In this document: one piece after another, positions 28,521-50,161 of the stretch
How positions within the stretch are numbered: the first letter of the stretch is position 1
Layout: the number at the start of each line of letters is the position of its first letter
DNA from: Clytia hemisphaerica
Lineage: Eukaryota; Cnidaria; Hydrozoa; Leptothecata; Clytiidae
Direction of reading: 5' to 3'
DNA length: 64,000 nt
NCBI GenBank assembly: GCA_902728285.1
Contig: CACVBU010000403.1
Coordinates: 18,328-82,327, forward strand
Made by a program: the position numbers and the translations under genes
The notes under the pieces: generated by a model
What the model saw: only the letters and a program-made list of their open reading frames with translations
What the model was told of the DNA's origin: nothing
Database searches by the model: none

Positions 28521-29332
28521 CAAAGAGATAGAAAATAGAGGAGGTTGCACGATTCTCTTTCTATTATACTATGTTAGTTATGATCATGAATAATTAATGA
28601 GGGAAGAAAAAAAGAGGGAAAGTTTTACGGAACCGACTAAATTGAAACAATCGGTGTTTTATTCAAAAAGATATAATCAATGCCGTAAAAAAGTGCTTGA
28701 AAACGAAAGTAGAACGGGCAGAGAGACAAATATAAAAAAAATGGAGGCTGTTGTTTTCCTTGACAGCTCGAGTCTTTTGGAAATTTATTCTTAGATATAA
28801 TAGCTCTCTTGAAATATACCGTTCACTTTCTCACGTTCTAAAGAAAGGTTTACTTCAATGAAAGTCTATATAGCTGCCAATAAGGTAAGGTAAGTATAGG
28901 GAGAAATCTAGCACCAGTTGTCAATTTTAGCTTTTTCTATCAGCTAAAAATGTATATTTTTCAACAAAATTCATAATATATTTTGATCATATAATGAACT
29001 ATCATCAAAAGATAAATATCTACTAACAAATGTATTGAGATCATATAATTTTAGATCAGTTTGGAGAGAAAAGAGAGAAGATATACAGATATAAGATGAT
29101 CAAAAACTTTAAGACTATAACTTCAAATTTTTCATCTCATGTCACAGACTGTCACAAGTGTAAAGGTTAGAGGTATCCTTTCTGTTTATTTACTTTTTCT
29201 GCTTAATGAATTTTTGTTTGAAATTCCACAAAAAGTATTTGGAATTTATCCAAATCAAATTCAGCTAAAATCTAAAAAAACAATTTTTTAAATAACAATA
29301 ATTTAAACAATAGAAAAAACCATCAGAACGAC

Positions 29333-31680
29333 CTGCCCACATAAGTTGAGGCTGGCTGACTAAGACGACCATGATCCAAAATGTAAAATCCATGATATTC
29401 AACAAGCAGCTCCTGCAAGATGAAAAGTGAAAAAGGTCTGATTGAAAGAATAAAAGACTGAGAAAATGTCGGTTTTCTATATTGAAAAAAAAACCACCTC
29501 TAAAACATGCAAGGCCAGGAGCACTCGCAGAAACATTGATTGCTTAAAATTAACATTGTACTATTTCATACTAAAAAACCTTTGAATGCAAAATCATTAC
29601 AAACCTGTAGTTTGCATGCAGCCTTTCAACACTTTGAATAGCCAGGTACAGTCTCCTTTTTTCTTTCCTCCTTTGCAAGCCAGGTGTAGGTGCCTCTGTT
29701 TTCCCACTTTTCAAAAATGTATCCGTCAGCCACTAAAATGATAAAAAGTTATAATTTGGTCACAACACACAAGTGAACCGTCATGTCAACATTATCTCTA
29801 ATAAAAAAAATGCTCCTTTAAAATCATGAGATGTATTTTATTTCAATTCACATATTGTATGGAGTAGAATTATCTGGATATAGTAACACCTAACCCTTGA
29901 AGGGAACTAGCAGCTAGTGAGAATACCTACAAAAACTAATCCCATCGAAAAATATAGGATAAAAATTACCTCAAAACATTTTGTCTTTTGTTTCTGTGTA
30001 CTGTCTGAGAGCAGGTTTTGCCCGGTTTTCTTGTTGCCATATCTTGGTTAGGATACTGTCCATTTAGGCAATCAAAAATTTTGTCGCAGATCCTGACAAA
30101 CTTTTGTGTACCACTAGTTTTGGGCTTGCCTTTGATACTGAAGAGCATGCTCTAGTACTGAGACACTAAAATAAAAAAGAAGTAACTTTCAAAAGGAATC
30201 CAGGACAAAAAATGAAAATAAGCTAGAGTCTTTGTCACCATCCAAACATTCAATATTTGTGTTTCACAGCTGAAAAAACCACTCAAGAAGTTTCGATGTT
30301 GAGCCCAGAAAAATTATTCAAAATTTCTGTTTATATCAAGCTAGTCATCAAACTAAAATTATCAAGACCAGACTTGTAGCTATAGTCATTTCAATCTCAT
30401 TGACAACAACTGAATACCTGAATACATATCATGGGATTTTTATTGTCATAAAAAGGCCATTTTATTTCAGACAAACCTAATTCTCAGACTTTACCTAGCC
30501 TGATTAGATAACATATAGGCACTTTTTTTGAGTTAATATGGTAATCATCTAAGTTACCTGAGCTGCAAGTTTAAACGTTCATCATATTTAGTCGATGTGT
30601 TCTCTTGTTAATTTGATTATGTATAAAGCCCTGGGATTTTAGTATTCTTGAACTCCCAGAGTTGTACCACATGGTTCCAACTGATTGAGTGTTTGTCCAG
30701 CTAAAAGGAAAGGAATTAGACCATATAATCTCAATAATTTTTTTTGAATTTCAACACCTGGTAGTGATAAATATTTCAAACAAATCATCATTGATATCAT
30801 TTAAGGTATTTCCTCTGGAAATAATAGACAAACCATTGGCTTACAAATTTTTGGTGCTTCTATTTCCATGAGAGTTTTCAAAATTGTTTTTTTCCTCACA
30901 AATGAAATATGCAGAGCTTATTTCTATCCAAAGCACATAGATTAATGCTGAAGAAATTACAGTATCTTCCATTCTTTGAGTTTATAAAATGAACGGTTTG
31001 TAGAAGCTCCATCAGATACCAAACACCCGACTTTCAAACTCAAATATTCCAACACTTCAACAGCTCCCAGACAACAGGAAATAACTCATCACTTGAAGCA
31101 AATCGCAGTAGGGAAAAAACAAAAACAAAAGTAATCCAGTGTAGATAGCTCTCGTACAATGAAAGCTAAAACATGCGATGCTGATTGTCTTGCTTTTTGG
31201 CCCTCCTCATCGCATTGCCTTTCCAACTTATTGATTTCCTCATTTATTTCACCCAATTCAAAAAAAAAACAATCAATAACAAATATAAAATCTTCAGCAT
31301 CAATAATTAGACAAAACCACAGTCTCTTTAATTTCTGAAATTTTCTCTCCCATCAACACAATCTGCGAAACCACTGGTATCAATAGCTGATGCTGTTGTT
31401 GTTTTATATACACTGTGTTGATTTATGCCTAGCTTTCTCTTTTTTCCTACTTTCAGCTTGGGTGCCTCTGGGTGCCTTTCAATGCGGATTCAAACTCGTA
31501 CAAACAACTCTACACTTTTCACAGATTTTCTCAGGATGAACATCAACAGCATCATTAGTAATATCAACTCCCAAAGCATTGAAAGCATCTTTAAAAGAAG
31601 CTGTCTCTTTAAGTTTTCTACAGTCTTACTTTTTATGATGAATCGGCTTATCATATCACGCACCGGCCGCATAACCGCAT
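29333..31680 (-). pseudogene. P/THAP9-type transposase remnant with an N-terminal RAG1-N-like zinc module
   Basis: Exon-like pieces are seen in order on the minus strand. (1) 31680-31490: a zinc-module remnant with DVHPEKICEKCRVVC. (2) About 31255-31185: a coiled-coil piece (EINEEINKLERQCDEEGQKA). (3) 30700-30558, bounded by TTTTAG and GTAACT: contains WNHVV, KLTREHID and FKLAAQ, a pattern typical of P transposases, split by a frameshift. (4) Up to about 30150, ending at 29969: KFVRICDKIFDCLN, matching the conserved FDxLN region. (5) 29732-29605: WLTDTFLK onward. (6) 29412-29333: ELLVEYHGFYILDHGRLSQ, comparable to the LTxRLNQD region. Several stops and frameshifts are present. In P/THAP9 proteins a THAP finger occupies the N-terminus; here a different Cys/His module appears in its place. 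The family assignment rests on these short motifs. Confidence 0.6.
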
Positions 31681-31722
31681 AATAATCTACACTACTTTAC
31701 TAAGGCAGCTGTTTGTTTGCGA

Positions 31723-32073
31723 CCAGGGGGGGGGGTACTAGGTTTGCGAGGTGACGGGTATGTCCGAGCCAAAAATCGAAAATCGACCCTTTGAGAGACT
31801 AAATTTTGGTGATTTTGGGACCCTTTGAGAGACTTTTTCCTAAATTTTGGTCCATATTTTCCAAATTTTGGTTTGATTTTCACCAAATTTTGGTCAAAAT
31901 TTTTGGAAATCGTGACCCTTTGAGAGAGAAATTTTTGATTTTCGTGATTTTGGGACCCTTTCAGAGACTAACTTTTGAATTTGTACCCCTTTGAGAGACT
32001 TTTGAGGATCGAAAAAAGGTACCCTTATGGCTCGCACATACCCGGCACCCATTTTGCCTAAGTACCCCCCTGG
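31723..32073. mobile_element. G-capped MITE (copy 2, intact)
   Basis: A 351-bp element with ends CCAGGGGGGGGGGTACT and AGTACCCCCCTGG. It is flanked by the exact 8-bp repeat GTTTGCGA (31715-31722 and 32074-32081). The interior repeats GGACCCTTTGAGAGACT. The paralogous sequence near 38495 lacks it, which confirms the insertion. It matches the two split ends of the element at 17729-24755. Confidence 0.9.
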
Positions 32074-32171
32074 GTTTGCGACGAAATTCAAATTCTTCTT
32101 CCATCTCTTCCTTCAGTATTACCAAGAAGCAAACTTTTCGAAATTAACCGCCAACTTTTAGCTGATCACGT

Positions 32172-32172
<1 letters not shown>

Positions 32173-32211
<39 letters not shown>

Positions 32212-32212
32212 A
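32173..32212. repeat. GATA microsatellite, tail of a short insertion
   Basis: About ten GATA/GATAGATA units are followed by about 110 bases of unique sequence. The paralogous copy at 38530-38570 goes straight from GATCACATAAA to GAAAGTGAAAGAC, so the microsatellite and its partner sequence were inserted here. It is probably the 3' end of a retroposon. Confidence 0.55.
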
Positions 32213-32939
32213 TATATTTACCGGGGACGATCGTAAAAATATATACATGTTCGTAAGAGCATATAAAATGTACATTTGCTCTAGTTTTATGGTAATAAAT
32301 GTATCTAGAATCAACAGATGATCGCTATAACGTATATAAACAAAGTGAAAGACAACAAGAACTGAAAGAACTACCTAGTCGATGGGTTGAGTACATGGAA
32401 TTTAAAAATGGGCTGAACTCAAAGAGCCAGACCACAGTGAAAAGAGCCAGACCACACTAGAAACTTCAGATATACATACCTCAAGGCATCCTCTACCAAG
32501 GAAAATTGTTCCCTATTTGAAAAAAATTGTCCATCTTTTCGATTTCGAGTGAATTCCATCAGTAGGTGCGGTTAGCTACTCAACAAGACAGGTTTTCTTT
32601 CTTCGATGATAATTTCACTGTATCCTTAGTCAAAACGTAAACAAATCATTTGATTGGTTGAAATAAATATATCCAAAAGCATTTGAGATGTTTTAAACCA
32701 TGTAGTACTTGCTGTAGACGTTGTTTTAGTCATAACTCGAATAGACATAACAAAAATAACAGCAGAAAAATCACCGCTTCGACCCGCCATGTTTGCTTCC
32801 TTCTCGATTGGCGGCATAACTCAGCTCGCGTCAAAGGCGATTTTTCTTTGTTGCAAAACAAAGGAAATTGAATAGAAAACAAGAGTCGCCCGGCTTTAAA
32901 GCAGTTGCGTGCAACCTCCTCTATTTTCTATCTCTTTGG

Positions 32940-35075
32940 CTAAATTGACTAAATTGAAACAATCGGTGTTTCATTCAAAAAGATACTATCGACGCCGTGA
33001 AAAGGTGCTTGAAAACGAAAGTACAACGGGCAGAGAGACAAATCAAAAAATAGCTGCTGTTTTCTTTGACAGCTTGAGTCTTTTCTATAAAACCATGCGA
33101 TGTATTTCATTTTACATATTGTATGGAGTAGAATTGGATAATAATGTAACACCTATTCCTTGAAAAGAGCTAGCAGCTAGCGAGAATACCTACAAAAACT
33201 AATCCCATTGAAGAATATAGGATAAAAATTACCTCAAAACGTTTGTCTTTTGTTTCTGTGTGCTGTCCGAGAGAGGGTTTTCTTGTTGCCATATCTGGGT
33301 TAGGCATGTCCATTTAGGCAATCAAAAAATTTTGTCGAAGATCCTGACAAACCTTTGTGTACCTCTAGTTTTTGCCTTGATACTGAAGAGCATTTACGAC
33401 TCAAGTACTGAGACACTGAAATTAAAAACGAAGTAACATTCAAAAGGAATCCAGGACAAATACTAAAAATAAGCTAGAGTCTTTGTTACCATCCAAACAT
33501 TCAATATTTGAATATTTTTGTTTCACAGCTGGAAAAGTCACTCAAGAAGTTTTGATGTTGAGCCCAGAAAAATTATTCAAAATTTCTGTTTATATCAAGT
33601 TAGTCATCAAACTAAAATCATCGAGAACAGACTAGAAGCAGCTATAGAGAAAATTACTTCAAAGTCATAAAACTAATTCAATACATAATATCATATCATG
33701 GGATTTTTATTGTCATAAAAAAGTCATTTTATTTCAGACAGACGTAATTCTCAGGCATGGTCAAAAATAAGAAGGAAAATATAAAAAACGATAAACTGTT
33801 GTATAACTGTATGATTAGATAACATAAGCAAAATTTTAAAGTTAATATGGTAATCATCTACAGTATGTGGCCCCCAAAACGTCGATAAAATTTGAAATTT
33901 TTCTCAAATCTAGAGGAAAAGAGATTTTACAAACATTTTTACTGCATGAAAACTTTTAACATCTTTATTTTATTTCCTAGAAGTTCTTTTTCAAAATTTT
34001 CAATTTCAACAATATATTTCAATTGCTTAAAGATAGGTAGCTTATTTTACCGATTTCTCGAGATATCTTTAAGATATGAATTCAAAATTTTGACCATAGT
34101 TTTGAAATATGATTTAGAAGGTTTTGGGCAAATTTGTTTGATAAAATTTTTACAGTACACCCCTGGTTGTCAAAACGGAGGTTTGGGGCCCTCAAAACGT
34201 ACGTGTAGTTAAAATCAAATTATATAGCCCAGTGATAATATGGGGAGAAACTATGAACATATTTGTGTTTTCCCTTGAATTTACGACCCGATGGATGTAA
34301 AATTTATGATTTTTATTAAATATTTCAAGATTTTCGATGATGCAAAGTCCAAACTCAAAATTTAGAAATTTTCAAAATGACGATTTTGATTTAACAACGT
34401 CTTAATCAAGTTTTTGAAAACCAATCTCTTTTGAAAATAGTTCCACTCATGTATGGAATGTGCTGTGAAAATTTTAGAAAAACGGCTTAACCAAAACTGA
34501 AAATATTAAGCTTTAAAGGTATTTTTCTCCGACATTTTGCAAAAAAATGACAGAATTTGCCGTTTTTGCTGATTCAGCGAAAATTTTTATATGTAATATT
34601 ATTTTTTTGTTATTAACTATTATTTCAAGCTGATAGGAATGGAATTCCAAGATTTTTTGCTGTTTCTCATATTTAGAATTTTCGGTTTTATCAATGCTGG
34701 TACCAAAATACTGGTTGACCTTTAAGATGCTATATCTTTCACCCATCCTCTAAAGTCACAGATGTATCTCAAAAACGTGCTAATTTTTAAGTATGACCAT
34801 CATTCTTTCAAAATAAAAAAAATCGTTTAATTCTGATAAATCTACAGGTCAAAATCCTCATTTTAACGACGACCTCCGTTTTGGGGGCCGTCTCCGTTTT
34901 GGGGGCCATATACTGTAAGTTACCTGAGCTGCAAGTTTAAACGTTCATCCTATATATTCGATGTGTTCTATCTTCTTATCATTATCATGTAAAGCCCTGG
35001 GATTTTGGTATTCTTGAACTCCCAGAGTTGTAACCACATGATTCCAACTGGTCTAGTGTTTGTCCAGCTAAAAGG
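32940..35075. repeat. P-like element copy B, left part
   Basis: This is a diverged direct copy of 28635-30710. It shares the stretch starting GACTAAATTGAAACAATCGG, the TACCTCAAAAC region (29965 versus 33230) and the KLT exon region (about 34920-35070). It begins immediately after the right target duplication of copy A, lacks a left terminus, and is interrupted by a Tc1/mariner-like element. It has no working reading frame. Confidence 0.8.
33861..34915. mobile_element. Tc1/mariner-like non-autonomous element
   Basis: The ends are CAGTATGTGGCCCCCAAAAC and its near-exact reverse complement, flanked by TA (33859-33860 and 34916-34917). Copy A has the empty site (ATCATCTAAGTTACC near 30546-30560), which proves the boundaries. 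A CAGT start and TA target fit Tc1/mariner. The 1055-bp interior has no convincing transposase, and a subterminal CAAAACGGAGG-type motif recurs inside. Confidence 0.85.
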
Positions 35076-35270
35076 AAAGGATAGACCTTATTATTAGCCA
35101 TAACGCATAATTTTCATTAAAGTGCCACCGCAGAAGAACGATCAAATAAATTGTTGAATTTGGAAAGAAATGTTACTGATAGCCGTTACTTCTGTTAGAA
35201 TGGCATCTCATCTGAAGCAAAATTTAGTCTACAAATATTAGCAATTTGTGTCCATCTCATATATCTTCTT
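35076..35270. other. Unassigned sequence between copy B and the foldback element
   Basis: This has no match to copy A and no gene. It leads into the duplicated flank of the foldback element. Confidence 0.4.
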
Positions 35271-35684
35271 ATCTTCTTATAGAGATAAGGTAAAGTTATT
35301 TATCTTTTTTCTTTTTATCATCTCTTTTATTACCAAAATAATGGTATATTATGGTTTGTTTATATCATACTAAACGCTGAGGCCTGGAAAACGCGAGTTA
35401 CAAAAACTCGAGTTACAAAAACCCGAGTTACAAAAACCCACTTTACAACGAATGTGACGTCATATAAGTCTCAAATTATCTTCTTATAGAGATAAGGTAA
35501 AGTTATTTATCTGTTTTCTTTTTGTCACCTCTTTTATTACCAAAATAATGGTATATTATGGTTTGTTTGTATCATACTAAACGCTGAAGCCCGGAAAACC
35601 CGAGTTACAAAAAGTCGAGTTACAAAAACCCGAGTTACAAAAACCCGCTTTACGACGAATGTGACGTCATAAGTCTCAAATTAT
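35271..35684. repeat. Tandem duplication of host flank plus outer terminal repeat
   Basis: Two units of about 207 bp (35271-35477 and 35478-35684). Each contains the same host flank (ATCTTCTTATAGAGATAAGG ... CATACTAAACGCT) joined to the first ~100 bases of the foldback element's terminal repeat (GAGTTACAAAAA units, then GACGTCAT and CTCAAATTAT). Confidence 0.85.
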
Positions 35685-36974
35685 GACGTCATAAGGGAAC
35701 TTCTTAACTCGAAAAAGTTATTTACTGTTGTTTTGTAACTGGAAATATTTTTTTTAAATTTTGGTTTCGAGTTACGTAACTCTAAAACAAAATTTTAAAA
35801 AAATATTTCGAGTTAAGTTAACGCGCAACCAAATTGGCCGAAAATTCTAAAATGCGCTTTTTTTCTTTTACAGTAGTTTACGAATGGGGTTTTTGATCTA
35901 TAAAACTAAAATTAGAGAGGAAGGGAATAAAAATGAAAGGGGACAGTAAACAATTTAATTTTCTGTGATTTTCTTGAAACTTATATACCTCTATTTTCAT
36001 GGGAATTTCTGAAGGTTTTGTTGGGTGAAGTAGACTTAAAATCTAAAAGATTCGATTACTCAAAATACATTTTGTATTCCACAATATATATTTGATAAAT
36101 TCAAATTCATTGTCCTCTTTCGCTAAAAACTAAAAGCTTCGGTAGAACTTGTAGTTTCTTTAGGTTTTTCACACATTTTTTAAGAACAAACCATACGAGA
36201 ACAGAAGGTTTCGAGGGCTAAAGTTATAACAATAAGTTAAGAACATTTCTTGAAATTTTAAGGCCTTATGGACTCAAAAACACCTAATTTCTTAGAAAAT
36301 TGCAGAAAATACTCACCTAATGCTAGTAGTGAAATAGAAACATTTTAAGAAAATTTTAAGGCTCAACTAAAAAAGCTAAAGACCCGAAGGCTTCGAATTT
36401 TTAGATGTTCTTATAAAAAAACACAACACATTTTTTTGAAAAGATTCTCGATTGCACAATGTACAAAATAATAATATAATGAATTGTAATCGTTAAAATA
36501 ATTGCTTAAAATATTTTTCTGATTGTTCAAAATCATGTTTTATGACGTCTGTTCTTTTATTTTATTATTTCATTATAATTATTGTTTTATAAATTAGATC
36601 TTTTGACGTTGTTTCTATCATTTCCGCTTTAAAATAAGTTTCTATTCTAATCGGATCTATTGATTCTTATCGAAAGAAATGGTGTATATTTTTTAATAAT
36701 ATGAATTCTAGAATTTTTGGCCGACTTGGCTTCACCTGAAGATAACTCGAAAGTTCAAATTATGTACTACAATTTCAAGTTACGTAACTCGAAAAATGAA
36801 ATTTTAAAAAAATATTTCGAGTTACAAAACAACAGTAAAAAACTTATTCGAGTTAAAAAGCCCACTTATGACGTCATAATTTGAGACTTGTGACGTCACA
36901 TTCGTCGTAACTCGGGTTTTTGTAACTCGGGTTTTTGTAACTCGAGATTTTGTAACTCGGGTTTTCCGGGCCTC
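35586..36974. mobile_element. Foldback/MULE-like element with GAGTTAC repeats
   Basis: The terminal inverted repeats are at least 250 bp, begin GARGCCCGGAAAACCCGAGT, and contain tandem GAGTTACAAAAACCC units, GACGTCAT motifs and ATTTCGAGTTAC. The 9-bp target duplication CTAAACGCT stands at 35577-35585 and 36975-36983, and a third copy at 35370-35378 belongs to the duplicated flank. A 9-bp duplication with long TIRs fits Mutator-like (MULE) elements. The interior (about 35880-36740) has no recognisable transposase. Confidence 0.8.
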
Positions 36975-37830
36975 CTAAACGCTACTGTACTAAACTGCCA
37001 TCTTACTATAATATAAGGTTTTGAAAGAATAAAAATTTCTAGTTTGCGTTGCTCAGAGCGGTTAATAACTACTTGTGGTTTAAATAGGAAATTTCCCAAC
37101 AAAAAAGGAATTTCCCTTAATTCGACTCCCTGAGGTAATAAAAAAAGACATATAGAGCTTTGAAAATGGGTAATCAGATAAAAAAAAATGTTTTTAATGA
37201 TGATAAAACAATAGAAATACAGTCAAGCTAAGAATGTTACCGGTACACCATTTAACTGGAACTAAAGTACTGAAAAACGCGTGCAAAATTATGAGATGTT
37301 TGCCCAACTTCCTTATGCGTGAAGCTATGAATGCCATCCTCGGAAGCTTTAGGCTTCCTGCGGTGGCAATAATTTCAATCATTTTTCTTTGAACTTCAAC
37401 ACCTGGTCGTGATAAATATTTCAAACAAATCATCATAAATATCATTTAAGGTATACATATTCTCTAGAAATAATAGACAAACCATTGACTTACAAAAGAT
37501 TTTGGTGCTTCTATTTCTATGAGAGTTTTCAAAATTGTTTCGTACTCACAAATGAAATAGATCTTTGTTTCTATATCCAAAGCACATAGATTAATGCTGA
37601 AAAATGGACTTTAGCTTTATGGAGTTTATAAGATTAACAGTTTGTAGAAGCTGCATCAGATACCAAACACCTGACCTTTAAACTCAAAGATTCCAACTCT
37701 TCAACAGTTCCCAGACAACAGGAAATAACTGATCACTTGAAGCAGATGCAGTAGGGAAAAAACAAAAACGAAAGTAAATGCAGTGTAGATACCTCGTGCA
37801 ATGAAAGATAAAACATGCGAGGCCGATTGT

Positions 37831-37892
37831 CTATCTATCTATCTATATATTTAAGTAACATTAGGCCCGAAGGTCCATTCTCGCTACTACAT
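37831..37892. mobile_element. Short retroposon tail (TCTA-type), in unit 1
   Basis: About 65 bases with (TCTA)n, ATATATTTAAGTAACATTAG and GGCCCGAAGGTCCATTCTCG are present here and at 39959-40022. They are absent from the paralogous position in copy A (about 31186), where GATTGTCTTGC runs on without a break. It looks like the 3' end of a SINE or LINE read backwards. Confidence 0.6.
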
Positions 37893-38092
37893 AACTGTCT
37901 TGCTTGTTGGCCCTTCTCATCACATTGCCTTTCCAACTTATTGATCTCCTCATTTTTTTTCACCCAATTCAATAAAACCAATAACAAGTCTTCAGCATCA
38001 ATAATTAGACAAAGCCACGGTGTCTTTAATATTGTTAAATTTTCTCTCCATCAACAGAATCATTAGTAATATCAACTCTCAAAGCATTGAGA

Positions 38093-38353
38093 GAAGGTTT
38101 GTACTTTTACGCTGTGACGGGATTGGCCCTTTTTTAGTACGGTATTACGGGATTCGACGGGAAAAAAGACGGGAAAACGGTATTTTAAAATCAGACAGTG
38201 ACGGTATTTGCCCATATTTTGTGATTATACCGGTATTTGAACCTGTACAATCCGGTGTGACGGTGTTATTATTTTTTTCAACTTTCGAGATTTCGGGATT
38301 CAGCATAAAAATTTTGACACGAAAACGGTATTTCGAACCCCTACAACCCCCCC
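38093..38353. mobile_element. CGGTATT MITE, copy 1
   Basis: The element spans 261 bases with GTGACGGGATTGG, ACGGTATTACGGGATT and a C-run at the right end, flanked by TTGAGA and TTGAAA. Copy A keeps the empty site (GCATTGAAAGCATC near 31577). The other copies are at 40222-40488 and 60903-61166. Confidence 0.75.
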
Positions 38354-39958
38354 TTGAAAGCATCTCCTCCCCCCCTTGAGAGCATCTTAAAAAGATGCTG
38401 CCTCTTTAAGTTTTCTACAAGGTCTTACTCTTTATGAATAATCGGCTTATCACGTACCTGCCGCATAATAATCTACACTACTTTACTAAGGCAGTTATAA
38501 GTCGATGAAATTCAAGAAGGAAACTTTTTGAAATTAACCGCCAAATTTGATCACATAAAGAAAGTGAAAGACAACAAGAATCTGAAGAACTACCTAGTCG
38601 AGTTGAGTACATGAAATTGAGAAATGGACTGAACTCAAAGAGCTAGACCACAGTGAAAAGGGCCAGACCAAACTAGAAACTTCAGATATACCTTGAAACT
38701 CAAACGAATGGAAGCCCAACTCATTGTCTAAAAAACAAAGCCGCGCTTTATCCTTTGCGCAGGATCCGCGTTGCCGCCAAAATTTTGAATTTTAGTTATT
38801 TCAACATGGCGTCGAAAATTTTTTTTCCGACATGACTTGCATAACGACCATAAAGTCTGAGAGTTCTCTTTTCATGTTTATGCTGTCAGGCTATAACTTT
38901 CTTTGATTAAAGGGTTCAAAGATTATTTTAGTACCAACATCCAGAAGGAATGTTCCTCAAACTTTTTATTCATCGAGACAAGGTAGACGACACAAAGCAT
39001 CAAAAACACGACACTGAGTTTCTGTTTTGATTTGTTGTGGTTGAAAAAAGAAGCTCTTTCTCTTTTCCCTTGAGGGAATGTGCTGGAATTTTTTACAGAT
39101 GACAGGTAAAGAGTTGATCTAAAGAATTAATGTTGTTTTTTAGCCATTCCTCATTTGAAAAGCCCATTCCTTTTGTTTTAACATTGACAAAAATCATGCT
39201 AAAATGACGTTGTTGTCAGGGCTTTTTGCCTCAATAACCTTCATCAATAGTTTTTTGAGTGAATGAATTTATTTACTTTTGGTGATTCTAAGACTTAAAA
39301 CACATTAAACTCGTTGTTACTAAAAGTGGTAACGGTAAAACAATAGAAATACAGTCAAGCTAAGAATGTTACCGGTACACCATTTAACCGGAACTAAAGT
39401 ACTGAAAAACGCGTGCAAAATTATGAGATGTTTGCCCAACTTCTTTAAGCGTGAAGCTATGAATGCCATCCTCGGAAGCTTTAGGCTTCCTGCGGTGGCA
39501 ATAATTTCAATCATTTTTCTTTGAACTTCAACACCTGGTCGTGATAAATATTTCAAACAAATCATCATAAATATCATTTAAGGTATACATATTCTCTAGA
39601 AATAATAGACAAACCATTGACTTACAAAAGATTTTGGTGCTTCTATTTCTATGAGAGTTTTCAAAATTGTTTCGTACTCACAAATGAAATAGATCTTTCT
39701 AAATCCAAAGCACATAGATTAATGCTGAAAAATGGACTTTAGCTTTATGGAGTTTATGAGATTAACAGTTTGTAGAAGCTGCATCAGATACCAAACACCT
39801 GACCTTTAAACTCAAAGATTCCAACTCTTCAACAGCTCCCAGACAACAGGAAATAACTGATCACTTGAAGCAGATGCAGTAGGGAAAAAACAAAAACGAA
39901 AGTAAATGCAGTGTAGATACCTCGTGCAATGAAAGCTAAAACATGCGAGGCCGATTGT

Positions 39959-40022
39959 CTATCTATCTATCTATATATTTAAGTAACATTAGGCCCGAAG
40001 GTCCATTCTCGCTACTACATAA
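39959..40022. mobile_element. Short retroposon tail (TCTA-type), in unit 2
   Basis: This is the same sequence as 37831-37892, copied along with the segmental duplication. Confidence 0.6.
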
Positions 40023-40221
40023 CTGTCTTGCTTGTTGGCCCTTCTCATCACATTGCCTTTCCAACTTATTGATCTCCTCATTTTCTTTTCACCCAATTCA
40101 ATAAAACCAATAACAAGTCTTCAGCATCAATAATTAGACAAAGCCACGGTGTCTTTAATATTGTTAAATTTTCTCTCCATCAACAGAATCATTAGTAATA
40201 TCAACTCCCAAAGCATTGAGA

Positions 40222-40488
40222 GAAGGTTTGTACTTTTACGCTGTGACGGGATTGGCCCTTTTTTAGTACGGTATTACGGGATTCGACGGGAAAAAAGACG
40301 GGAAAACGGTATTTTAAAATCAGACAGTGACGGTATTTGCCCATATTTTGTGATTATACCGGTATTTGAACCTGTACAATCCGGTGTGACGGTGTTATTA
40401 TTTTTTTCAACTTTCGAGATTTCGGGATTCAGCATAAAAATTTTGACACGAAAACGGTATTTCGAACCCCTACAACCCCCCCCCCCCC
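40222..40488. mobile_element. CGGTATT MITE, copy 2
   Basis: Nearly identical to 38093-38353, with exact TTGAGA flanks (40216-40221 and 40489-40494). It was copied with the segmental duplication. Confidence 0.8.
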
Positions 40489-41404
40489 TTGAGAGCATCT
40501 TAAAAAGATGCTGCCTCTTTAAGTTTTCTACAAGGTCTTACTCTTTATGAATAATCGGCTTATCACTTACCGGCCGCATAATAATCTACACTACTTTACT
40601 AAGGCAGTTATAAGTCGATGAAATTCAAGAAGGAAACTTTTTGAAATTAACCGCGAAATTTGATCACATAAACAAAGTGAAAGACAACAAGAATCTGAAG
40701 AACTACCTAGTCGAGTTGAGTACATGAAATTGAGAAATGGACTGAACTCAAAGAGCTAGACCAAACTAGAAACTTCAGATATACCTTGAAACTCAAACGA
40801 ATGGAAGCCCAACTCATTGTCTAAAAAACAAAGCCGCGCTTTATCCTTTGCGCAGGATCCGCGTTGCCGCCAAAATTTTGAATTTTAGTTATTTCAACAT
40901 GGCGTCGAAAATTTTTTTTCCGACATGACTTGCATAACGACCATAAAGTCTGAGAGTTCTCTTTTCATGTTTATGCTGTCAGACTATAACTTTCTTTGAT
41001 TAAAGGGTTCAAAGATTATTTTAGTACCAACATCCAGAAGGAATGTTCCTCAAACTTTTTATTCATCGAGACAAGGTAGACGACACAAAGCATCAAAAAC
41101 ACGACACTGAGTTTCTGTTTTGATTTGTTGTGGTTGAAAAAAGAAGCTCTTTCTCTTTTCCCTTGAGGGAATGTGCTGGAATTTTTTACAGATGACAGGT
41201 AAAGAGTTGATCTAAAGAATTAATGTTGTTTTTTAGCCATTCCTCATTTAAAAAGCCCATTCCTTTTGTTTTAACATTGACAAAAATCATGCTAAAATGA
41301 CGTTGTTGTCAGGGCTTTTTGCCTCAATAACCTTCATCAATAGTTTTTTGAGTGAATGAATTTATTTACTTTTGGTGATTCTAAGACTTAAAACACATTA
41401 AACT

Positions 41405-41558
41405 CGTTGTTACTAAAAGTGGTAACGGTAGGTAACGATAGGTAACGACAAGTAACGACAAGTAACGACAGGTAACGATGAAGTAACGGTCGGTAACGAT
41501 GAAGTAACGCAAGTAACGAGGGGTAACGAAAAAGTAACGAAGTAACGATGGTGGAAAA
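41405..41558. repeat. GTAACG-type short tandem repeats, left end
   Basis: Irregular units of 7-14 bases with the core GTAACGA or GTAACG. The mirrored array is at 46018-46160. Confidence 0.85.
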
Positions 41559-41820
41559 GCTGAAAATGGTGGCCCTGAGGTGTCGAACTATCAAAATTTG
41601 TAAATTTGTGCGCCAGAGCCAATGGTCCAGGTGATTTTGGGAGAACCTAACGACTCTGGTTAATCGGGTTAATCTATTCAAGAATTTGGGAAATCTGATG
41701 ATTTTACAACAGAATCTGATCGTTCTGGTGAATATGACTGTGGAGATAATAAATCCAATTGTTTTTATTGTAAATTGGTGTTTGTGAATAAACTGAAAGA
41801 TTTGACGGCTTTGGTGAATC

Positions 41821-43215
41821 AATGGTGCTGGTCAATGCAATAATGGAATCAATGGTGCTGGTCAATACAATGATGGAATCAATGGTGTTGGTCAATACAA
41901 TGATGGAATCAATGGTGCTGGTCAATACAATTATGGAATCAATGGTGCTGGTCAATACAATGATGGAATCAATGGTGCTGGTCAATGCAATGATGGAATC
42001 AATGGTGCTGGTCAATGTAATGATGGAATCAGTGGTGATGGTCAATGCAGTGATGGAATCAATGGTGTTGGTCAATACAGTGATGGAATCAATGGTGTTG
42101 GTCAATGCAATGATGGAATCAATGGTGCTGGTCAATACAATGATGGAATCAATGGTGTTGGTCAATGCAATGATGGAATCAATGGTGCTGGTCAATACAA
42201 TGATGGAATCAATGGTGCTGGTCAATACAATGATGGAATCAATGGTGCTGGTCAATACAATGATGGAATCAATTGTGCTGGTCAATGCAATGATGGAATC
42301 AATGGTGCTGGTCAATACAATGATGGAATCAATGGTGCTGGTCAATACAATGATGGAATCAATGGTGCTGGTCAATAAAATGATGGAATCAATGGTGCTG
42401 GTCAATACAATGATGGAATCAATGGTGCTGGTCAATACAATGATGGAATCAATGGTGCTGGTCAATGCAATGATGGAATCAATGGTGCTGGTCAATACAA
42501 TGATGGAATCAATGGTAATGGTCAATGCAATGATGGAATCAATGGTGCTGGTCAATACAATGATGGAATCAATGGTGCTGGTCAATGCAATGATGTAATC
42601 AATGGTGCTGGTCAATGCAATGATGAAATCAATGGTGCTGGTCAATGTAATGATGGAATCAATGGTGTTGGTCAATGCAATGATGGAATTAATGGTGCTG
42701 GTCAATACAATGATGGAATCAATGGTATTGGTCAATGCATGGCGATGGTCAATACAATGATGGAATCAATGGTGCTGGTCAATGCAATGATGGAATCAAT
42801 GGTGCTGGTCAATGCAATGATGGAATCAATGGTGCTGGTCAATGCAATGATGGAATCAATGGTGCTGGTCAATACAATGATGGAATCAATGGTGCTGGTC
42901 AATACAATGATGGAATCAATGGTGCTGGTCAATGCAATGATGGAATCAATGGTGCTGGTCAATACAATGATGGAATCAATGCTGCTGGTCAATGCAATGA
43001 TGGAATCAATGGCGCTGGTCAATGAAATGATGAAATCAATGGTGTTGGTCAATGCAATGATGGAATCAATGGTGCTGGTCAATGCAATAATGGAATCAAT
43101 GGTGCTGGTCAATGCAATAATGGAATCAATGGTGCTGGTCAATGCAATGATGGAATTAAGTGCTGGTCAATACAATGATGAAATCAATGGTGCTGGTCAA
43201 TGCAATGATGGAATC
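41821..43215. repeat. 30-bp minisatellite, left arm (about 45 units)
   Basis: The unit is AATGGTGCTGGTCAATGCAA followed by TGATGGAATC; most units differ by one or two bases. There is a phase break at about 42735. Because the unit is a multiple of three and lacks stop codons in at least three frames, it generates long open frames on both strands. I do not treat these as genes. Confidence 0.95.
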
Positions 43216-43319
43216 ATTGGCTATGGTGGAATCATTGGTTCTGGTGAATTCAATAGTGGAATCGATGGTGGTGTACTGGTGGATGCTATGCTGCACTCAC
43301 CAATGGTACTGTTGTGCAG

Positions 43320-43905
43320 GTGAATGCAAGTTAGAGATTTTGCATTTTTTGTAAGCATCATCTTTATAAGAAATCTATCGATAATTTTTTATTCAAGGGG
43401 AATTGACTTTTGGCGATGGGTTCTTCCAAAGCAAGTTAGGGATTGTGAAAAATGTGAGTATTTTTATTTTTCTTATAAGCATCATCTGTATAAGAATACA
43501 ATCGATAACTTTTAATTCAAGAGGTGTTGACTTTTGACGATTGGGTCATTCAAAGCAAGTTAGGGATTGTGCAAAATGTGAGCATATTTATTTTTCTTAT
43601 AAGCATCATCTTTATAAGAATACAATCAATATATTTTGACTCAAGGGGTATTGACTTTCGGCGATTGGTTCATTCAAAGCAACTTGGGGTTTGTTCAAAA
43701 TGTGAGAATCTTTATTTTTCTTATAAGCATCATCTTCATAAAATTACAATCCATAACCTTCAAAGGTTTTGAATTTTGGTATTTGGTTCATTCAAAGCAA
43801 GTTAGAGATTGTGCAAAATGTGAGTATATTTATTTTTCTTATAAGAATCATCTTCATAAGATTGCAATCCATAACCTTTGAAAGTTTTGAATTTTGGTGA
43901 TTGGT
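43320..43905. repeat. Tandem repeat of about 124 bp, left arm (about five units)
   Basis: The units contain CAAAGCAAGTTAGGGATTGT, ATTTTTCTTATAAGCATCAT and GGGGTATTGACTTT. Inverted copies are at 44205-44520 (about three units). Confidence 0.9.
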
Positions 43906-44184
43906 TCATTCAAAGAAAGTCAACGATTTCACATAAGAATAGTATTTTAATTTTAATTTTATTCGGTTTCGTTTTTTTCTGAATTGAAATATTTAACCAG
44001 CTTATGATTAAGCTCTTAACAATTTGATTGCCATTCACTGATTGCTCGTTTCTTAATTGATTCTTGTGCAATTGACATTGCAGCAAAACTTTAGCATTCC
44101 ATTCTGCAAATCAATTTAACAAAACAATATTACATTCTTGAGGATAAGATGCGTTTTAAAATGAAAAGTCCAAAATTCCAATCA
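43906..44184. other. Central spacer of the giant foldback element
   Basis: About 280 bases that separate the two arms and are not part of the inverted repeat. They are AT-rich with no open frame of note. Confidence 0.6.
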
Positions 44185-44579
44185 CCGAGATTCGAAACCT
44201 TCAAAGGTTATGGATTGTAATCTTATGATAATGATGCTTATAAGGAAAATAAATATGCTCACATTTTGCACAACCCCTAACTTGCTTTGAATAAACCAAT
44301 CGTCGAAAGTCAATACCCCTTGAATCAAAAGTTATTGATCATATTCTTATAAAGATGATGCTTATAAGAAAAATAGATATGCTCACATTTTGCACAAACC
44401 CCAAGCTGCTTTGAATGAACCAATCGTTGAAAGTCAATACCCCTTGAATCAAAAGTTATTGACCGTATTCTTATAAAGATGATGCTTACAAAAAATGCAC
44501 AATCCCTAACTTGCATTCACCTGCACAACAGTACCATTGGTGAGTGCAGCATTGTATCCACCAGTACACCACCATCGAT

Positions 44580-45765
44580 TCCACCATTGAATTCACAAGA
44601 ACCATTGATTCCATCATTGCATTGACCAGGACCATTGATTCCATCATTATATTGACCAGCACCATTGATTCCATCATTGCATTGACCAGCACCATTGATT
44701 CCATCATTGCATTGACCAGCACCATTGATTCCATCATTGCATTGACCAGCACCATAATTGATTCCATCATTGCATTGACCAGCACCATTGATTCCATCAT
44801 TGCATTGACCAGCACCATTGATTCCATCATTTCATTGACCAGCACCATTGATTCCATCATTTCATTGACCAGCACCATTGATTCCTTCATTGCATTGACC
44901 AGCAGCATTGATTCCATCATTGCATTGACCAGCAGCATATTGATTCCATCATTGTATTGGCCAGCACCATTGATTCCATCATTGCATTGACCAGCAGCAT
45001 TGATTCCATCATTGCATTGACCAGCAGCATTGATTCCATCATTGTATTGACCAGCACCATTGATTCCATCTTTGCATTGACCAGCACCATTGATTCCATC
45101 ATTGTATTGACCAGCACCATTGATTCCATCATTGTATTGACCAGCACCATTGATTCCATCATTGCATAGACCAGCACCATTGATTCCATCATTGCATTGA
45201 CCAGCACCATTGATTCCATCATTGTATTGACCAGCACCATTGATTCCATCTTTGCATTGACCAGCACCATTGATTCCATCATTGTATTGACCAGCACCAT
45301 TGATTCCATCATTGTATTGACCAGCACCATTGATTCCATCATTGCATTGACCAGCACCATTGATTCCATCATTGCATTGACCAGCACCAATGATTCCATC
45401 ATTGCATTGACCACCACCATTAATTCCACCATTGTATTGACCAGCACCATTGATTCCATCATTGCATTGACCAGCACCATTGATTCCATCATTGTATTGA
45501 CCAGCACCATTGGTTCCATCATTGTATTGACCAGCACCATTGATTCCATCATTGTATTGACCAGCACTATTGATTCCATCATTGTATTGACCAGCACCAT
45601 TGATTCCATCATTGTATTGACCAGCACCATTGATTCCATCAGTGCATTGGCCAACACCATTGATTCCATCACTGCATTGACCATCACCACTGATTCCATT
45701 ATTACATTGACCAGCACCATTTATTTCATCATTGCATTTACCAACACCATTGATTCACCAAAGCC
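44580..45765. repeat. 30-bp minisatellite, right arm (about 39 units, inverted)
   Basis: Reverse-complement units (GATTCCATCATTGCATTGAC, then CAGCACCATT) with the same kind of one-base variants as the left arm. The right array is shorter by several units. Confidence 0.95.
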
Positions 45766-46180
45766 GTCAAATTTTTCAGTTTATTCACAAACACCAATTT
45801 ACAATAAAAATAAATGGATTTATTATCTCCACAGTTATATTCACCAGAACGATCAGATCCTACTGTGCAATCATCAGATTTCCCAAATTCTTGAATAGAT
45901 TAACCAGAGTCGTTAGGTTCTCCTAAAATCACCGGGACCATTAGCTCTGGCGCACAAATTTACAAATTTTGATAGTTCATCGATACGTCAGGGCCACAAT
46001 TTTCAGCTATTTCCCCATCGTTACTTCGTTACTTTTTCGTTACCCCTCGTTACTTGCGTTACTTCATCGTTACCGACCGTTACTTCATCGTTACTTGTCG
46101 TTACCTACCGTTACTTGTCGTTACCTATCGTTACTTACCGTTACCTACCGTTACCACTTTTAGTAACAACGCATTAAACT

Positions 46181-47516
46181 GGGTTGATTTTAAAAAGGAT
46201 AAACATCTTGCTTCACTGGAAAGATTATGCAGAATCTGTGGCTTTAAGATCACATTTTCTGGAGGTTATCGGTCTGCGAAATCAGTGACTGGATTCAAAG
46301 AATTTATTGAAGATGGAATTGATAATGATGATGCCAACATCCATCCAAGAAGTTTGTGCAACAAATGCTACATGAAGTTATACAAAATGAAGAACAATAA
46401 AACTACAGAACTAATAACCACCTATAACTTTCTACCACACAATGATGATGATGATGGGGGTGGTGGCTCTTGTTATGTTTGCCAACAGAAAATTCAAATT
46501 TCAACCATGAAAGAAAAGATGGAATCATCAACAACAAATTCAGCTCTAAAATTTGGATTCAAGGTAGGTATAAATTTATATATTTAGTATAAATTCTCTC
46601 TTGCTGATATCTTGGTTATATATACCGTAAGATGCTCCTACTAAAATGCTGATCCTCGTGTTTTAAAACCGACATGTTCTCGCAACAGAATAGCTAGATT
46701 CAAATTTGTATATCAGTAAGTTTGTTGAAAATTTTTTCTCATCGCCAAAACTGTTTTGTATATATAGCTTTTGTGTTGTAATATTTCTATTCATGCCCAA
46801 TTTTGAGATGCAATTTGCATATTATGTAAAAATATATAAATTTATAATTTTACGTTTAGGAAATTGGAAAGAATATATTTGGTTGTCAGTGTCAGTGTCA
46901 GTCATTTGGACCAGTAAAAAGTCTTGACATTTTTTATACAGGTGATTACACCGTCACAATTCATTACAAGCCTGTTAGACGTGAGATCCTTACGAAACTG
47001 AATTTTCCAAATGTTATAACTAGTTTGCACACTGATGAAATTTTTAAGTTACTTCAACAATCAATATATTGTACAGGCAATGAAGACTTTGAAGACCTAG
47101 TCTCACGAAAAATGGGTGATTTAAATGAATTTCTATTCATGTCAACTGATCAAACTGTTACAAGTCATTTAGAAACTGGGGATGGAAAGACCTTGAGGGA
47201 TGTCACTATAATCAGGCATGAAAAACTGTGACGTACTGATCAACTCAAGTAAAGGTTTGTTCTTTTTTATATTTTACATATATTTTTTAATTTTATATGC
47301 ATTATGTAATTCTATAAAGTCCTTGCTAGTCGTATTTTCTAATAATAATACCAAAAGTTTTGAATATTGAGTTGATATTGTACCATACCTTTACCCTACA
47401 TAATTTCCAGGTAAAAGATGTGAACCTTGCTCACATTATCGCAATAGTTTATTTGCTATGCACTCACGAAAAAGAAGATCAAATGAAGAGTTTATTGCAC
47501 CTCAGACAAACAACAG
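46181..47516 (+). CDS. Protein with a RAG1-N-type zinc module; 5' end disrupted by the foldback element
   Basis: The first readable exon runs from the foldback edge to a donor at about 46562 (TTCAAG|GTAGGT). It contains LERLCRICGFKITF, then FKEFIEDGIDND, NIHPRSLCNKCYMKLYK and, after an acidic and Gly-rich run, CYVCQQK. This order (CRICG ... IHPxxxCxxC ... CxxC) matches the zinc-binding region upstream of the RING finger in RAG1. Later exon candidates are 46942-47231 (after TACAG; segment VTIHYKPVRREILTKLNFPN) and 47412-47516 (after TTCCAG). There is no RAG1 catalytic core in the window. The open frame extends backwards into the foldback DNA, but that part is an artefact. The true start codon is not visible. 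A transposon-derived gene is as likely as a cellular one. Confidence 0.55.
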
Positions 47517-47599
47517 GTATATTTTGCGCTAAATACACCAAGTATCGTGGTGTGTTTAAAATTCCATTGTTTTATTATTATCTAATAAACCATATTTGA

Positions 47600-47904
47600 A
47601 AAGATTCGTACAGAGGGAAGCATTTTAATTTTGAGAAGAATATTTGACTGTCTAATATAGGATCAAGTTCCCTCATTATTCTTCAAATAGCTTGGATTTA
47701 CAGACAAAAGACTCCTTGCTTATTTGCGTTGCTTACATTGTTTTATATACATTATTATAGAAATGATTACTTAATAGTTCATTTTTACGGCGGCTTCTTA
47801 GTGCCAACAAAAATGTGCAATATTTTTACAAAAAAAACTACGCAATTTTTTTTCAAAAAAAAAAAGACGTACATTTAATTTTTTGATTTTTTTCCTTATT
47901 ACTG
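47600..47904. other. Non-coding, AT-rich
   Basis: I see no gene. The stretch contains A- and T-runs at about 47830-47890. Confidence 0.4.
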
Positions 47905-48369: not shown

Positions 48370-50161
48370 ATGGCAGTTGACAGAGACTCTCTTGTCAGGG
48401 AATACTTTGATAGAGGATACGACTATGAGGAGATAATCACGACGCTTAGACAAGTACACTCAAAAATCATCAGCTTAAGGCAACTTCATAGGGTTCTTCG
48501 TAACCAAAATCTGTATCGAAGAAAATATGGTTGTGATACTAGAGATGCCATATCATTTGTTCAGAGGCAGTTGAGAAGCAGTGGTTCATCGTTAGGATAC
48601 CGTTTAATGCACCAAAGATGTTTGCAAGCAGGTTATCGCACAACTAGGGAAAATATTCGTATCATGCTCAAGCTTTTGGATCCTATTGGTGTTGAAGAAC
48701 GAAGCAGAAAGGTATTAAAACGTCGTCAATATTGGTCTTATGGGCCTAATTGGGTTTGGCATATCGACGGCTACGATAAACTCAAACCTTATGGCTTCCC
48801 AATTCATGGAGCAATAGATGGCTTTAGCCGTAGAATTATGTGGCTGGAAGTGACCTCGTCAAATAAAGAGCCCGAAATAATTTGTAGCTTTTTTTTGAAA
48901 TGTATTAAAACGATTTCTGGAACACCCCGTAAGATTGTTGGTGATAGAGGTACAGAAAATGTTCATGTGGCGGCTTCTCAGAGGTTCCTGAGAAGAAACG
49001 ACCAAGACAATAATTCTGGCGAGGCAAGTTTTAAGTATGGCAAATCAGTTACCAATCAGCGAATTGAGTCATGGTGGGCGATGTTAAGACGTACATGCAC
49101 GAATTGGTGGATCAACTATTTTAGAGATTTAATAGAAAATGATTTGTTTGACACATCAAATAATGTTCACTGTGAATGTACCGGGTGACCCACGAAAAAG
49201 TTCAGACGTTTCCCGACGTCTTGAGGCCGAACAAATGTCCCAAAGTGCTTGGAGTTTTGATATTTAGAAAGTAGATATCCTAGCTTAAAATTTGAGCTAT
49301 CACTTTTTAAATTTGACCAACTTGTTCTCTGCTTATGAGCTTTTAAAGTCAAAATTCACTTTACGGAAAGTGTAAAAAACACGTAAAAAAGAGGTATTAA
49401 ATTCATGCAATCAATTAGAAAATCACTTACAAATTGACTTATTTAACCAGTTTTATGACATTAATAATTAATAAAAACACCTTTGAAAGTAGTTTTTGTT
49501 TAAAACAAGGCTACTTTTTATAAAAATTGGCGCTTTCATAGATTTTTTTCAAAAACTGTATATCAAAAACGTCTAAAAATACCAAATTTGATACCCCTTT
49601 TTTACGTGTTTTTTACACTTTCCGTAAAGTGAATTTTGACTTTAAAAGCTCATAAGCAGAGAACAAGTTGGTCAAATTTAAAAAGTGATAGCTCAAATTT
49701 TAAGTTAGGATATCTACTTTCTAAATATCAAAACTCCAAGCACTTTGGGACATTTGTACGGCCTCAAGACGTCGGGAAACGTCTGAACTTTTTCGTGGGT
49801 CACCCGGTATTAAATTCAGTTTTTAGGATATAGATCTTACAATGAAAATTTGGAATAATCATAGAATAAGGCTTTCCTCAACATCAAATAGGAGAATTAG
49901 ACCAGCCGGTCGGCCAAATGTTCTTTATTTTAGTCCATCTGTGTCAGATGCACCAATACAGGATTTATTTTGGAGGAGAATGATGTTGGAATTGTAAAGG
50001 ACATGTGTACTAAAGAGTTTCCAAAAGACTTTATATGCTCAAGAGAGTGTTTTGAATTGTGTAGTATCATAATGCTTGAAAATTCTTTTAGTATGCCTAC
50101 AAATCCTGAGGAGGCTCTTGCTTTATATACCAGCCTTGTGCATCAAATTAATAATATTTGA
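48370..50161 (+). pseudogene. Integrase-core (DDE) gene, broken
   Basis: The frame starts MAVDRDSLVREYFDRGYDY, with a helix-turn-helix-like region, and continues to an integrase core. The acidic residues are visible in WVWHIDGYDKL (Asp), KIVGDRGTENVH (Asp) and TNQRIESWWAML (Glu). Genes of this type are multicopy in fish and cnidarian genomes as I recall, and are thought to derive from DNA transposons or retroelements. The reading is cut at about 49180 by a 627-bp palindromic MITE. Without the MITE it goes on in the same frame (IKFSF, then one stop, then MKIWNNHRIR). After a further frameshift it ends at 50161 (EALALYTSLVHQINNI). One insertion, one stop and one frameshift make this copy non-functional. 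Confidence 0.8.
49181..49807. mobile_element. Palindromic MITE with TA target
   Basis: The ends are CCGGGTGACCCACGAAAAAG and its exact reverse complement; the arms are about 210 bp each around a short centre. TA flanks both sides (49179-49180 and 49808-49809). It interrupts the integrase-like frame. The same peptide can be read outward from both arms, which shows how little the arms differ. Confidence 0.9.

Follow-up and report, generated by a model that had tools for sequence, protein, structure and literature searches.

Two transposable elements of the hydrozoan Clytia hemisphaerica, which lie about 5 kb apart and which we call E1 and E2, are each preceded by a tandem duplication joining flanking DNA to the outer tip of the element's terminal inverted repeat (TIR). 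Both occur in a stretch of 64,000 nucleotides (hereafter the window; contig CACVBU010000403.1, positions 18,328 to 82,327, or C286:18328-82327 in the searched assembly of 417 Mb and 951 contigs). The question raised by this locus is whether the ends of such elements provoke duplications of this kind, as supposed by an original prediction made from the sequence alone, or whether two separate accidents left similar traces. We favour, with a probability of roughly two in three, two independent, ordinary, microhomology-mediated tandem duplications that followed insertion, the one at E1 probably guided by hairpins. Their joint presence in one window would then be mostly a coincidence.

Two elements with doubled flanks and tips

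E1 and E2 are most likely non-autonomous DNA transposons of the Mutator/foldback type. Like Mutator-like elements (MULEs), they combine long TIRs (196 bp in E1, over 2 kb in E2) with target site duplications (TSDs) in the range of 9-11 bp, found at E1 and E2 (9 bp each), in the E1 family and at the E2 empty site. All 17 two-ended E1-family copies have perfect TSDs of 9-10 bp (two of them, L017 and L018, being one insertion), and the tips of the first 20 other E1-family loci read GAGGCCCGGAAAACCCGAGTTAC. Foldback elements are recognised by long TIRs made of short-tandem-repeat domains. E2 has exactly this structure, with 10-bp, then 30-bp and then 124-bp tandem repeats along its arms, whereas E1 shows it in part, as 15-bp repeats within its 196-bp TIR; the original prediction, which had spoken of two foldbacks, was thus right for E2, E1 being a short-TIR element. 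In Drosophila, FB elements contain repeats of 10 and 31 bp and have TSDs of 9 bp. No open stretch of more than 120 codons was present in 16 E1-family copies, and a Pfam scan of 20 of the 33 window open reading frames (ORFs) of at least 120 amino acids detected no MULE transposase, no genome-wide search for an autonomous copy having been made.

The tandem doubling of flank and outer TIR was confirmed at both elements, both times on the left side and ending inside the terminal repeat, although with two events a shared side has a 1-in-2 chance. The E1 unit begins with 101 bp of flank, continues through the 9-bp TSD and takes in the outermost 95-99 bp of the TIR, a range due to 4 bp of microhomology; its copies are 94-95% identical. 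The much longer E2 copies show 97.4% identity: 14 of 2092 aligned bases are substituted, and there are also indels of 1-20 bp. Their shared tip had been given as exactly the first 25 bases of the element; the tip is indeed doubled, with a length of 24-26 bases given 2 bp of microhomology. The flank is also doubled as claimed, but to call it host DNA was only partly correct, since it is largely older repeat at both elements: that of E1 belongs to a ~2.28-kb stretch that a paralogous sequence, A, is without, and that of E2 is the end of a repeat B followed by the start of a dispersed repeat R. The TSDs had been overlooked. Each of the two, CTAAACGCT and CATTAAACT, is present at three sites and, on either strand, at no other place in the window (Table 1), because each doubled unit includes flank, TSD and element tip. 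There is no N in the duplicated region or at either junction, the only two N of the window being at 15633 and 17706.

Table 1 Coordinates of E1, E2, their target sites, duplicated units and breakpoint hairpins in the window
Feature	Position	Strand	Remarks
E1, non-coding long-TIR element, 1389 bp	35586..36974	+	TIRs 35586-35781 and 36779-36974
E1 duplication, outer copy	35269..35475	+	flank + TSD + first ~97 bp of E1 TIR
E1 duplication, inner copy	35476..35684	+	35681-35684 = microhomology TTAT
E1 TSD CTAAACGCT, 9 bp, outer copy	35370..35378	+	
E1 TSD CTAAACGCT, inner copy	35577..35585	+	adjoining E1
E1 TSD CTAAACGCT, right of E1	36975..36983	+	
7-bp perfect hairpin	35268..35289	+	flank breakpoint of E1 duplication
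11-bp perfect hairpin (TGACGTCATAA/TTATGACGTCA)	35662..35691	+	TIR breakpoint of E1 duplication
E2, foldback element, 4767 bp	41405..46171	+	arms about 91.6% alike
E2 duplication, outer copy	37204..39335	+	end of repeat B + start of repeat R + TSD + first 24 bp of E2
E2 duplication, inner copy	39336..41429	+	ending within E2; 41429-41430 = microhomology TA
E2 TSD CATTAAACT, 9 bp, outer copy	39303..39311	+	
E2 TSD CATTAAACT, inner copy	41396..41404	+	adjoining E2
E2 TSD CATTAAACT, right of E2	46172..46180	+	

Both junctions are gapless and lie inside the TIR. At E1, TIR position 95-99 is joined to flank position 35269 with 4 bp of microhomology, and at E2, TIR position 24-26 is joined to position 37204 with 2 bp. 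Random joins in the region have microhomology of at least 4 bp in 2.6% of cases and of at least 2 bp in 19%; microhomology is informative, at a suggestive level, for E1 and not for E2. Both E1 breakpoints fall within the arms of perfect hairpins, an observation made post hoc; in the window, such arms (loop 3-10) occupy 2.0% of the sequence when at least 7 bp long and 0.22% when at least 10 bp long. The hairpin in the TIR is the only perfect one of at least 10 bp (loop 3-10) between 33 and 47 kb, and its folding (z = -4.1) was equalled by none of 200 shuffles. This hairpin belongs to the ordinary make-up of one of the family's two TIRs and is perfect in 26 of the 35 fetched loci, the other 9 being short regions with one end only, often that of the opposite TIR type. 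The break at E2 coincides with the start of the 10-bp minisatellite of its long stem.

The order of events can be read from the copies themselves. TSD and tip are present in both copies at each element, so that both duplications follow insertion, and a duplication that preceded it is ruled out. E2 inserted into repeat R, which starts at ~38689. Two members of R, L044 (C613) and L045 (C949), 93-95% alike, cross the insertion point without a break and possess one target copy and a single R sequence. These two paralogous empty sites prove the insertion of E2 and, with R and target single in both, place it first and the duplication later. The E2 duplication is also measurably younger than the insertion: among 439 positions of the arms, 6 changes are unique, where an equal age of the two would predict 1.47 (p = 0.004), and outside the minisatellite there are 3 in 147 against 0.49 (p = 0.014), as scored against 13 other arms, some of them short. 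Relative to paralogue A, 5 changes fall on the outer E2 copy and 2 on the inner one, with 1 undecided (896 aligned columns). At E1, one change from the consensus of 20 left TIRs, AG>CT, is common to the inner and the outer tip; AG is present in all 49 other TIRs of the family, from 33 loci, and in the right TIR of E1 itself. In addition, the inner tip has 2 substitutions of its own, and the outer one 4 plus a 2-bp insertion. The E1 duplication was therefore probably also later than its insertion, a delay that rests on this shared dinucleotide. Divergence between copies is sevenfold higher at E1 (10/205, 4.9%) than at E2 (14/2092, 0.67%; p = 1.7e-5), and this difference in age rules out a single event at both elements.

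Origin of the duplications

Independent post-insertion duplication would proceed by synthesis that entered the TIR from the flank by way of the TSD, copied its first 24 (E2) or 95-99 (E1) bases and then jumped back to an upstream point of the flank at 2-4 bases of microhomology, after which flank, TSD and tip would be copied a second time. At E1 the switch would lead from the 3' arm of the 11-bp TIR hairpin to an arm of the 7-bp flank hairpin, which makes slippage stalled by hairpins the likely trigger. At E2 a fork might have stalled at the long stem, a suggestion that we infer only, because the E2 break has no notable local hairpin. The replicative course as a whole is inferred as well, and end-joining of two breaks would give the same junctions. 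Among the common mechanisms that had been proposed for this locus, breakage at a hairpin (or, equally, slippage there) agrees with E1 and its two hairpins, but as a process shared with E2 it is weakly supported given the sevenfold difference in age.

Several points weigh against two ordinary, independent events. In a self-comparison of the window, the duplications at E1 and E2 were the only simple two-copy, head-to-tail ones with a unit of at least 200 bp (a count that leaves out multi-copy arrays, for example three units of 156 bp at 21788, as well as the ~4.3-kb pair A/B, which is older and interrupted), and both end in a TIR tip. The probability that random placement brings both this close to a tip (100 bp or less, a limit picked after the data had been seen) ranges from about 4e-5, if two elements are considered, to 2.5e-4, if all five TIR elements are. 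The association exceeds the expectation for independent ordinary events and leaves room for an element-driven bias. The folding test detected no unusual local folding or notable hairpin at the E2 breakpoints. For E1, 8 unique changes in 210 positions against 5.1 expected do not reject a duplication at the time of insertion (p = 0.15), and the source copy may already have carried the shared CT dinucleotide as a rare variant. Two observations on other family members, described below, point the same way: tandem arrays beside three E1-family tips, in part, and the E2-family locus C541, which could conceal a real flank and tip duplication behind its N.

These points matter most for the view that foldback or long-TIR ends stall replication forks and repeatedly yield tandem duplications of flank and tip on the side first met. 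The shared side of two elements ~5 kb apart is what a single fork direction would give, the E1 junction lies inside hairpin arms, and all 6 sampled copies of the Drosophila foldback FB4 are reported to have structural variants, for instance tandem duplications (Tan et al. 2021, PMC8277862). An element-driven process would predict enrichment at other copies, as the original prediction did, but the sample from the genome came out negative.

For E1, the best 40 of 495 candidates gave 42 TIR matches, corresponding to E1 itself and 34 other places, each of which was read in part: 20 first, then C504 and then 13 more. Two insertions were met twice (L017/L018 and L052/L054), leaving 32 independent other loci. 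Flanks of 3.0-4.1 kb per side were covered in the first 20 loci (1.0 kb on the right of L030; in L016 the first 1000 bases are N), with ends missing from the sequence of L015, L022 and L026, and about 1.2-1.3 kb at one or both ends in the 13 further places (16 regions). None of the 32 loci had a flank and tip duplication (upper 95% limit about 9%). C504, a candidate recurrence, proved to be one E1-type element inserted in another. Among the best 40 candidates each, no other locus had E1's doubled flank between tips, or R with an E2 tip, as a transposed doubled-TIR unit would.

In L015 (5461-5655), L046 (907-1185) and L058 (764-1177), the last two numbered in oriented reading, the flank directly beside the E1-family tip is a short tandem array without the tip; a 77% match extends 3 bases into the tip in L058. 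These arrays, which may reflect insertion preference or local instability, were not counted as recurrence and would agree with an effect of the element. The members of L017/L018 (99.7%) and L052/L054 (99.4%) are the same E1-family insertions on two contigs, either retained haplotigs or duplicate contigs.

The E2 tip occurs 396 times in the genome at up to 2 mismatches, and a reversed control pattern 0 times. The 100 exact tips listed of these 396 fell into 60 clusters, of which 29 were simple elements, 25 were single tips and 6 were irregular. One of the irregular clusters is that of the window itself and the other five were read, so that 54 of the 59 other clusters were scored from tip positions alone. 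No gapless flank and tip duplication was found in these 59 clusters (95% limit about 5%, with C541 set aside). Same-strand tips with different flanks identified C533, C517 and C604 as nested or neighbouring insertions, the inner elements of C604 and C533 having 9-bp TSDs of their own (GGTTTTTGG and ACGTAATAG, respectively). In C466 (L036), an E2-family end and its flank of 176-bp satellite form an inverted duplication, the 1146-bp arms of which are 99.9% alike. In C541 (L033, 627-2275), 523 identical bases of flank and tip stand on either side of 1649 N at an E2-family end with no matching TSD, likely an unmerged contig overlap. A duplication would escape the scans of both families if its tip had decayed or if its unit exceeded the flank covered. 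Pattern scans of viral contigs gave no match, and a scan of genome contigs found a 19-mer in two bacterial contigs, which we estimate to be about chance expectation. With no clear recurrence in these samples of the two families, and with the other multi-tip loci that were read being nested or neighbouring insertions, an inverted duplication or split by N, a mechanism driven by the elements and shared by both duplications is weakly supported, and we regard it as rather unlikely.

The two copies of each unit might instead be alleles or overlapping contig ends laid in tandem by the assembly, an explanation that concerns E2 almost entirely and that we hold to be quite unlikely. The assembly does contain such doubled sequence: the repeat across the N of C541, and the contig pairs C513/C433 and C805/C722, which hold the same insertion twice. 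Moreover, the E2 duplication ends where the minisatellite starts, a plausible assembly break point. However, neither junction contains N, and the three artefact-like pairs differ at only 0/523, 10/9494 and 1/1301 aligned positions (0-0.1%), indels apart, compared with 14/2092 plus 16- and 20-bp indels between the E2 copies (p = 6.5e-6) and 10/205 between the E1 copies (p = 1e-12); with three pairs, allelic divergence is poorly constrained in this comparison. Changes have, in addition, accumulated on both E2 copies relative to A as outgroup. Assembly error, which had been named as one finding that would overturn the prediction, is accordingly disfavoured by divergences of 0.67% and 4.9%.

Transposases of these superfamilies cut at the terminus, and an aborted transposition would hence not give rise to outer TIR bases that adjoin the flank at one end and a point farther upstream in it at the other. 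Alternative transposition (of sister chromatids or reversed ends, or as over-synthesis during gap filling at insertion) is known to make terminus-bounded tandem duplications, sometimes closed by microhomology joining (PMC3744419, PMC4270019), and the E1 duplication might be nearly as old as its insertion; nevertheless, it is a very improbable source of these duplications, since its products join ends to a new target with the TSD of that target, whereas neither E1 nor E2 has a terminus at the joint or such a TSD, the new joints lying 24 and 95 bp inside the TIR, the tips abutting the original TSDs, the E2 duplication being younger than the insertion and the E1 copies sharing a change that 49 other TIRs of the family lack. 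The same breakpoints, original TSDs, later date at E2 and shared change at E1 speak against re-replication from a nicked end, which had been proposed together with aborted transposition.

Neighbouring repeats and genes

Pfam matches in the window comprised an RBP receptor, HECT, the retroelement domains Pao and RVT/endonuclease, and a RAG1 importin-binding domain. Repeat R, interrupted by E2, extends over 38689-39311 and 46172-47769; besides C613 and C949, at 93-95%, it has some 28 matches at 68-78%. An ORF of RAG1 importin-binding type lies at 46054-46587, within a single open frame (45976-46587) that runs from the right TIR of E2 across the TSD into the RAG1-like exon, and a separate integrase-core (rva_4) ORF follows R at 48370-49188.

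Farther to the left, 31-bp perfect inverted repeats with the 7-bp TSD GCTAAAT enclose a 4.4-kb unit (28521-32938), the interior of which (28635-32475) is colinear with 32947-38691, mostly 82-93% alike, position 32947 being 1-2 bases past the TSD. This pair may represent captured flank or two adjacent copies of a dispersed repeat, seven other loci having 91-93% matches to 38561-38691. An insertion of ~1 kb at 33861-34915, with terminal CAGTATRTGGCCCCCAAAACG repeats and TA on either side, is missing from paralogue A and looks Tc1/mariner-like. A further foldback occupies 49179-49809, with 225-bp arms 98% alike and, by eye, TA at both borders; the window self-comparison showed no flank duplication beside it.

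Relation to known systems and significance

The doubling of TIRs is known already, and what E1 and E2 add is the inclusion of flank and TSD in the doubled unit. Among the titles and abstract beginnings listed from open-access literature, none had a duplication of flank, TSD and tip as its subject, a weak negative. A close parallel is with plant MULEs with tandem TIRs, which have Mutator-type ends, 9-11-bp TSDs and a TIR doubled in tandem, and for one family of which replication slippage between short motifs has been proposed, the matter being open for others (Ferguson & Jiang 2012, PMC3310237). Those elements, some of them amplified, double the TIR within the element, whereas here host flank and TSD stand between the repeated portions (the outer ~97 of 196 bp in E1, 24-26 bp only in E2), and no moved descendant was seen among the scored matches.

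E2 resembles the Drosophila foldback FB4 in its repetitive TIRs and in rearrangements that include tandem duplications (PMC8277862). For most animal single-copy Pack-TIRs, post-insertion gap filling independent of transposition has been proposed, with a median of 2 bp of microhomology in about two thirds (PMC8277862). Pack-TIRs hold their copy inside the element, between TIRs and TSDs; here flank and tip were copied together and the duplicate lies outside an intact element, so that a comparable structure would arise only if the outer tip were taken as the element end. Foldbacks are mostly assigned to the Mutator superfamily (PMC3169594, PMC4079207), and by structure E1 and E2 can be likened to the Mutator/foldback Tm1 of root-knot nematodes (PMC3169594) and to Tetris of Drosophila virilis (PMC4079207), with their composite TIRs containing internal tandem repeats and their 8-10-bp TSDs; in the parts of those papers used here, no flank and tip duplication is described for either. 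Alternative-transposition products share with E1 and E2 tandem duplications at transposon ends and microhomology at some joints, but range from 8 kb to the Mb scale and have their joint at the end, with the TSD of a new target, instead of inside the TIR with the original TSD (PMC3744419, PMC4270019).

A flank-inclusive tip duplication could, in principle, be a one-step route of sequence capture. Slippage at a long TIR's base would yield a second tip with a matching TSD, and transposase could then move the element together with host DNA, the duplicated side being set by fork direction. In E1 the larger unit would be 35379-36974, between the TSDs at 35370 and 36975, and in E2 39312-46171, between those at 39303 and 46172. 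We consider this route a long shot. If true, it would connect MULEs with tandem TIRs to elements of the Pack type with no need for gap filling, and if long-TIR ends regularly gave rise to such duplications, this would account for the uptake of neighbouring DNA and the existence of tandem-TIR elements. Our sample says that they are uncommon at these ends, and nested insertions and N-split repeats such as C541, which mimic them, call for caution. The two clean, dated examples from Clytia, with triple TSDs and, in one case, empty sites, can serve as markers of what this signature looks like.

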